Positions 15,521 through 17,114 of a stretch of DNA of 48,980 nt are shown in pieces. Position 1 is the first letter of the stretch. Every line of letters starts with the position of its first letter. Under the pieces are notes generated by a model. That model saw nothing but the letters and a program-made list of their open reading frames with translations. It ran no database searches and was not told where the DNA came from. The stretch is from Trueperaceae bacterium (GTDB lineage: Bacteria; Deinococcota; Deinococci; Deinococcales; Trueperaceae): the NCBI GenBank assembly GCA_002707365.1, contig PAMQ01000009.1, positions 11,189 to 60,168 on the forward strand, given 5' to 3'. The position numbers and the translations under genes are program-made.

Positions 15521-16087
15521 GTGAACACTCATCCTGAAGTCCTTGCTATTGGAGCGCAAGCACCGTCTTTCTTTTTGCCAGCCACCGATGGAAAAGAGTA
15601 TAGCCTAAGTGATTTCGATGCCTCTGTATTAGTTTACGTCCAAGGTTGCAACCATTGCCCTTACGTCATCGGATATCTCGATCGCCTCAAAAGCCTTGCT
15701 AATGATTTCCAGGCAAGAGACGTGCAATTCGTAATGATCAACTCAAATGATGCAGCAACTTACCCTGATGATGATTTCGAATCAATGAAGAAGTTTTCGC
15801 TAGATCAGGACCTTCCTTTCCCCTATCTTTACGATGAGGACCAATCCATTGCTCAGGCCTATAAGGCTGTCAGGACCCCCGAAATATTGGTTTTCGATGC
15901 GGACAGAACTCTCCGCTACCATGGTCGTATCGACGATAATGCTAAGGAGCCGCACAATGTTACGTCGACCGAATTGCGTAATGCTCTTGAGGCTCTAACC
16001 TCTGGTAACACAGTGCAGGAGGCAGAAACTTACGCTGTAGGGTGTACTGTCAAATGGAAGCCCGGTAACGAACCAATTGTCAGTTAA
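15521..16087 (+). CDS. Thioredoxin-fold redoxin (AhpC/TSA family)
   Basis: 188 residues, cytoplasmic (no signal peptide). The N-terminal PxFxLPxxDGKxYSLSDF pattern (APSFFLPATDGKEYSLSDF) is that of redoxins. The active-site CxxC is Cys43/Cys46 in GCNHCPYV, and a cis-proline region follows in VRTPEILVFD. A further Cys near 174 (AVGCTVKW) sits in the family's conserved C-terminal segment. It probably reduces disulfides or peroxides; substrate unknown. GTG start at 15521 with a clear AAAGGAG before it. Confidence 0.88.
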   Translation: MNTHPEVLAIGAQAPSFFLPATDGKEYSLSDFDASVLVYVQGCNHCPYVIGYLDRLKSLANDFQARDVQFVMINSNDAATYPDDDFESMKKFSLDQDLPFPYLYDEDQSIAQAYKAVRTPEILVFDADRTLRYHGRIDDNAKEPHNVTSTELRNALEALTSGNTVQEAETYAVGCTVKWKPGNEPIVS

Positions 16088-16297
16088 TTCTGATTGCCCA
16101 AATCTTTAGAGCGTCCCTTCGCCTCATCTAGTACTGTGCTTGTTGTGTAAAGCCTAATTAAGAACACTAGGGATTCGGGTTTTTACCGTCCCTGTCAGTA
16201 AACACGGTACTATCAAGAATATGACCCCAGCTGTGGATAACTTGCCTCAGCACAAGTTCAAATACAATAGTGTCAGATTCGCCCTATAGCATGTAAC

Positions 16298-16332
16298 CTT
16301 GAGAAAACCTGTCTCTGACAGGTTTTCTCAAG
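16298..16332. repeat. 16-bp perfect inverted repeat with 3-nt loop
   Basis: CTTGAGAAAACCTGTC pairs with its exact complement after the loop TCT. Neither strand has a T-run after it, so it is not a textbook Rho-independent terminator, although it lies between two convergent genes. Confidence 0.8.
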
Positions 16333-16363
16333 ATCCCGTAAGGATAGGCAAAAAACTAGAAGG

Positions 16364-16407
16364 GCTTTAGCTTTTTTTCCACAAGCTTGTGGAAAAAAAG
16401 CTAAAGC
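16364..16407. repeat. 44-bp perfect palindrome
   Basis: Each 22-bp half is the exact reverse complement of the other, with no loop; the centre is AAGCTT at 16383-16388. The arms contain seven-base T and A runs next to CCACAAG/CTTGTGG. On either strand the run after the inner stem is A, not T, which argues against simple termination. The two TTTTCCACA-type boxes sit symmetrically around the centre. Confidence 0.9.
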
Positions 16408-16499
16408 TTGTGGATAACCCACACATACCTCGTCCTAGACAGGACTTATTAAACTTAGAGAAGTCCAAAGGATTGAGAAACCTTTCTAAACGGGAAATT

Positions 16500-17114
16500 C
16501 TACCGATTCGCGAACGCAGATCTAGCTTCTCGAACAAATTCAAGTACCTTATGGGGAGCCTTAACCCCAATACTCTTCTCAACACCTGTGGCCACATCAA
16601 CAGCGTAAGGTCCCAGTTGCCTTATGCCCAATGCGACATTGCTTGGGTTCAGCCCACCAGCAAGAATCATTCGTGAAACTTCTTTAAGTTGACTTGCCTG
16701 GGACCAATCGAATGCCTTACCGGAACCCGGCTTTGGGCCATCAATAAGAAACGCGTCGGCACGATAGCCTTCTAAGTCATTTGTTGTAAGATTTTGCTTA
16801 AACGAGAAAGCTCTAATGACAGGAACGTGCTTCTGTATCTCAGCAACATAAGTTGACTCCTCTGAACCATGTAATTGAATTACACCTAACCGAAGAATCT
16901 TTATAGCCTTAAGCACTTGTTCCAAGGGAGCATTAGAAAAAACACCGACACGAACAAGGAGCGGTCCTACCGAACTAACGATTTCCTGAGCACGACTAAC
17001 TGTGATTGCACGTTTAGATTCCGAGACAAAGATTAGTCCAATCGCATCCGCCCCAGCAGACTCAGCTAAGGTGGCGTCCTCGGGACTTGTGATGCCACAA
17101 ATCTTGATTCGCAT
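16500..17114 (-). CDS. trpF: Phosphoribosylanthranilate isomerase
   Basis: A TIM-barrel enzyme of tryptophan synthesis that isomerises N-(5-phosphoribosyl)anthranilate. 204 residues from the ATG at 17114, beginning MRIKICGIT with the conserved catalytic Cys. Further hallmarks: GADAIGLIFV, VIQLHGSE, AFLIDGPKPGSGKAFDW with the catalytic Asp, LAGGLNPSNV, and AVDVATGVEKSIGVK. A TTG at 17138 would add eight residues and has GAGG close upstream; the family start favours 17114. It follows rsfS by 38 nt; no other trp gene is in the window. Confidence 0.93.
   Translation of the reverse strand: MRIKICGITSPEDATLAESAGADAIGLIFVSESKRAITVSRAQEIVSSVGPLLVRVGVFSNAPLEQVLKAIKILRLGVIQLHGSEESTYVAEIQKHVPVIRAFSFKQNLTTNDLEGYRADAFLIDGPKPGSGKAFDWSQASQLKEVSRMILAGGLNPSNVALGIRQLGPYAVDVATGVEKSIGVKAPHKVLEFVREARSAFANR

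Follow-up and report, generated by a model that had tools for sequence, protein, structure and literature searches.

The window is a stretch of 48,980 nucleotides (G000:C9:11189-60168) from a 2.08-Mb draft genome of a Trueperaceae bacterium that is assembled in 19 contigs. It features a gene-free gap between two convergent genes, a peroxiredoxin-like (Prx-like) gene and trpF, in which four DnaA boxes, B to E, and a long perfect palindrome are located (Table 1). The ORFs that overlap the gap are short and spurious, and a search of the block against Rfam families and for tRNAs gave no match. The two perfect TTATCCACA boxes and the two TTTTCCACA boxes lie within 186 bp, and the TTTTCCACA boxes are placed symmetrically within the palindrome. 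The preliminary description of this DNA had reported these boxes, the palindrome, the 21-bp phasing of two of the boxes and the lack of a gene in the block, and all of these features were recovered at their exact coordinates.

Table 1. Features of the trpF gap and its flanking genes (positions in the window)
Feature	Position	Strand	Remarks
AhpC/TSA-type peroxiredoxin-like gene	15521..16087	+	Stands where most relatives have a carboxyltransferase gene
DnaA box B, TTATCCACA	16232..16240	-	Perfect; the distal box, with a B-C distance of 143 bp
Position of the promoter-like element of relatives	16241..16280	+	Degenerate here
Second hairpin, B-C spacer	16298..16332		16-bp perfect arms, 3-nt loop (CTTGAGAAAACCTGTC TCT GACAGGTTTTCTCAAG)
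44-bp perfect palindrome	16364..16407		Spans boxes C and D; strong fold as single strand
DnaA box C, TTTTCCACA	16375..16383	+	Analogous to DARS box I
DnaA box D, TTTTCCACA	16388..16396	-	Head-to-head with C, 13 bp start-to-start
DnaA box E, TTATCCACA	16409..16417	-	Perfect; 21 bp from D, 34 bp from C (33 bp in relatives)
CGTCCTAGAC	16431..16440	+	Copy of a motif that relatives have between B and C
trpF (phosphoribosylanthranilate isomerase)	16500..17114	-	Conserved neighbour, convergent with the Prx-like gene

The density of the boxes and the length of the palindrome are far above chance. Four matches to TTWTCCACA were observed in the 186 bp, compared with at most one in each of 300 shuffles. 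The second-longest perfect palindrome in the window is only 16 bp long, and 40 dinucleotide shuffles of the window produced none longer than 20 bp. The TTATCCACA sequence occurs 17 times in the whole genome, and two copies are found within 200 bp of each other only in the dnaA-dnaN region and at the cluster in the trpF gap. On the minus strand, in the direction of trpF, the palindrome has the form of a terminator-like hairpin. The extension of the palindrome outside the boxes is absent in the relatives and thus a peculiarity of this genome.

The box cluster was found at the equivalent site in all 39 Trueperaceae genomes of the comparative set, from which Deinococcus itself was absent, at GC contents up to ~77%. 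The usual layout in the family is (A<) B< ... C> D< E<. Boxes B and C are separated by 142-144 bp in most relatives (range 130-156 bp), and box A, where it is present, lies 20-22 bp beyond B. The C-D distance is either 13 bp or 23 bp, the latter in about a third of the genera, and one genome (G002) features D at both positions; this 10-bp step suggests that the boxes stay on the same side of the helix. Two genomes depart from the layout, G001 with two tandem pairs and G032 with a reduced cluster of two clear boxes. The complete 2.9-Mb genome G021 holds eight TTWTCCACA sequences in all, of which four are at the cluster, two are in the dnaA-dnaN region and two are single. The 4.3-Mb genome G012 has clusters only at the trpF-type site (five boxes) and at dnaA-dnaN; in G037, however, the genome holds several additional close box pairs. 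The distance of the cluster from dnaA is 30 kb in G037, 0.62 Mb in G021 and about 1.9 Mb in G012. In G037, G061 and G065, several inverted pairs of DnaA boxes with a start-to-start distance of 16-17 bp recur around the genome, and they are possibly a repeated element or further DnaA sites.

The usual gene order at the site is rplU-rpmA-obg-yqeK-LCP-rsfS-trpF-[cluster]-carboxyltransferase-vWA-rodA-sufT-rlmH-thyX. The plasmid-like remnant that the preliminary description had considered finds no support, as the cluster is located in a syntenic housekeeping block of the family. The cluster is also independent of its neighbours. The genome of the window has kept the cluster without that carboxyltransferase gene (a Prx-like gene is near the cluster in G004 and G008 as well), while in G002, G025 and G026 trpF is gone from the site and the cluster stays beside the carboxyltransferase gene. 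In G043 and G044 neither gene is at the site and the boxes remain beside the vWA gene. A tie of the cluster to trpF or to the carboxyltransferase gene was thus rejected, because either can be absent. In G043 (L127, 1439-3041), a single gene separates the box cluster from a dnaN-like gene.

Related arrays extend beyond the family. Two further families (f2 and f3) feature arrays of mixed orientation at trpF or at the vWA gene. In f4, all five genomes checked (G047, G048, G051, G054 and G057) carry two to four boxes in the same direction directly after trpF, and so do the basal f5 genomes G061 and G063; no boxes follow trpF in the remaining f5 genomes that were inspected (genera g29, g30 and g31). 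Since f4 and f5 have same-direction boxes only, the head-to-head geometry is not universal. In two f5 genomes (G109 and G110), all exact TTATCCACA copies are concentrated in a single cluster that is probably oriC; in G109 it is located at the start of a contig, the place of dnaA-dnaN in other relatives. This distribution suggests avoidance of the box elsewhere in these genomes. No second cluster was found anywhere in two Thermus-like genomes. As a control, 80 trpF loci were fetched from all bacteria, and three of these have clusters, two from organisms named Trueperaceae and one from an organism named Thermaceae; one other Deinococcales locus among the 80 stops at a contig edge. The ~77 loci from other phyla have no cluster, and one of them has a single box.

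A fixed box pattern is therefore kept at the same off-origin place across the family and in related families, which indicates that the cluster probably controls DnaA and is not an origin. The deep conservation lends support to the DnaA-titration or reactivation site that the preliminary description had named among its readings. On balance, the best explanation, and one that is rather more probable than its competitors taken together, is that this non-coding, off-origin cluster serves as a DnaA-control locus in Deinococcota, an analogue of DARS, datA and the B. subtilis clusters. Among the titles and abstracts listed by searches of the open-licence literature, none reports datA- or DARS-like loci in Deinococcota.

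The main rival is a transcriptional role, because the spacer of the relatives features a conserved promoter-like element and a palindromic motif. In 26 of 29 aligned family sequences, CTTGACAA-N15-TGnTAGg is located just after box B and reads towards C, with TTGACA at a fixed place, and a palindromic CCGTCCtGGACGg motif follows ~38 bp downstream in the alignment. The conserved agaaatnCCGTCCtGGACGg motif of the relatives is likewise ~38 bp on, and in many cases a further copy precedes box C (corresponding window span 16241-16332). The second hairpin of the window, whose arms contain A4 and T4, aligns with this motif. A rare operator with the sequence CGTCCnGGACG was considered and rejected; variants also occur elsewhere (60 in 0.8 Mb of genomes sampled), so only its fixed place is notable. 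In the transcriptional reading the locus would be a DnaA-regulated promoter, with boxes A and B upstream and C-D-E downstream, from which DnaA would regulate a short RNA or an antisense transcript running towards trpF. This is rather unlikely. Most genomes have no gene in that direction before the convergent trpF, and a structured RNA in the spacer was rejected, as there was no Rfam match and no consensus fold in a test that was run without a positive control. Additionally, the promoter-like element is degenerate in G000, G012 and G029 while the boxes stay, and in the window's own genome both the element and the palindromic motif are degenerate or displaced. The conserved element beside box B may leave room for a transcriptional role.

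A passive sink, in which the boxes would only titrate DnaA and form no specific complex, is a less probable rival still. It draws on one high-GC relative in which the locus has half of all perfect boxes; however, the locus offers only four or five boxes, their spacing and orientation are conserved across genera to a degree that a sink does not need, and their location with respect to the origin, a factor of importance for titration, varies.

The reading of the cluster as a replication origin, main or reserve, is also one that the preliminary description had put forward, with a box cluster in an intergenic gap in its favour, and it is now highly improbable. An oriC is expected to combine boxes with an AT-rich unwinding element and a DnaA-trio, usually between dnaA and dnaN, and the cluster does not have this combination. 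The single dnaA of the window's genome is on contig C10 and not at the cluster on C9. It is followed by an intergenic region and dnaN, and parA, parB, rsmG and mnmG are located on its other side; these gene names were assigned from translations and not by a family search. The dnaA-dnaN gap (G000:C10:45082-45260, L003) features no more than three boxes, two perfect ones and one TTTTCCACA, together with an AT-rich stretch and a run of ACTATT repeats that is possibly an unusual DnaA-trio. In every genome checked, dnaA is located away from the cluster. In the relatives, the region after dnaA bears boxes in nearly all genomes and a DnaA-trio-like CTACTA/TAGTAG motif in most, whereas the motif was found in none of 29 clusters and no AT-rich element was found in the clusters of GC-rich members. 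The GC skew of G021, which is weak, changes from negative to positive near 2.6-2.7 Mb, ~0.15 Mb from dnaA at 2.79 Mb, and changes the opposite way at the cluster (0.496 Mb), which is the wrong sign for an origin. The skew of G012 (61 samples of 20 kb) is irregular and disturbed. Short proteins with partial DnaA AAA+ matches are found besides the full DnaA (G022:C11:218159, G010:C18:4812 and G010:C70:4470) and are possibly Hda-like or replication-loader proteins. Finally, it is scarcely credible that the palindrome is a mere trpF terminator with incidental box matches, despite its terminator-like form in the window's genome, since the 9-bp boxes stay exact even in GC-rich relatives, also where they are unpaired and at a distance of 142 bp, the hairpin extension is absent in relatives, and clusters persist where trpF is gone.

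For the favoured DnaA-control locus, a mechanism can be proposed in which DnaA would assemble compactly on C, D and E, with two of these boxes forming an inverted (head-to-head) pair. Together with box B, and with A in many relatives, ~142 bp away, a larger and possibly looped nucleoprotein complex would form. This complex would alter the amount or the nucleotide state of free DnaA, and the altered DnaA would in turn tune the timing of firing at the dnaA-dnaN origin. Within this class, the inverted three-box core in Trueperaceae allows a DARS-like reactivation site as a tentative assignment. Structured titration and ATP hydrolysis are, taken jointly, about equally likely, and the tandem arrays of the sister families look more datA-like. 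It is also conceivable, but decidedly doubtful, that the helically phased inverted core, the distal box pair and the embedded promoter work together as a DnaA switch specific to Deinococcota. If this were true, transcription through the locus would load or strip DnaA and reset its nucleotide state without IHF or Fis.

Deinococcota is a phylum known for radiation resistance, and to our knowledge initiation control is poorly known in bacteria other than E. coli and B. subtilis. If this phylum has one conserved DnaA locus with DARS-like topology and no apparent IHF-type site, this would show that cis-acting control of DnaA is ancient or has evolved more than once, and the locus offers a precise site for testing initiation control in Deinococcota.

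DARS and datA in E. coli and the box clusters in B. subtilis tune initiation by the amount or state of DnaA. DARS promotes the release of ADP from ADP-DnaA, and IHF and Fis sites in the regulatory region are a feature of DARS2 only. The cores of E. coli DARS1 and DARS2, measured on NC_000913.3, have box I> at 0, II< at +14 and III< at +26. Their common structure has box I opposite to II and III with a head-to-head I-II interaction, and DARS1 is active without additional factors (PMC5742627). The Trueperaceae locus is similarly non-coding and off-origin, and features a three-box core in which box I (C) is opposite to II and III (D and E), with a head-to-head I-II distance of 13 bp compared with 14 bp in E. 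coli. However, the II-III distance is 20 bp and not 12 bp (core at 0, +13 or +23, and +33/34), about a third of the genera have D displaced by one more turn, and there is an extra box or box pair ~142 bp away. A long, potentially bendable spacer lies between the boxes of datA (PMC5742627), and the Trueperaceae locus is likewise an off-origin cluster with a long spacer between boxes. The essential boxes of datA have the same orientation and a needed IHF site. In Trueperaceae the core is inverted instead, and IHF-type sites are not apparent, with only 1 of 29 clusters matching a simple pattern; with respect to orientation, the tandem arrays of f4 and f5 resemble datA more closely. In B. subtilis, box clusters outside oriC bind DnaA and limit early initiation (PMC5295017). 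The Trueperaceae cluster is also away from the origin, but B. subtilis has six clusters per genome with a redundant effect, while Trueperaceae have mainly one dominant locus of fixed geometry. The distance of such loci from the origin is conserved in E. coli (PMC4585315), and the cluster-dnaA distance in Deinococcota is not. The DnaA residues that are needed for DARS or datA function in E. coli (D269, R281, R285, L290 and R334) and the box-binding helix are conserved, which is probably general to DnaA. The cluster shares the property that defines the broad class, which is dense DnaA boxes outside oriC that are conserved between relatives. Since the topology is the same but the II-III distance is longer and no IHF site is evident, the resemblance is to the class and not to DARS or datA in particular, and on present evidence the locus probably works like members of this class.
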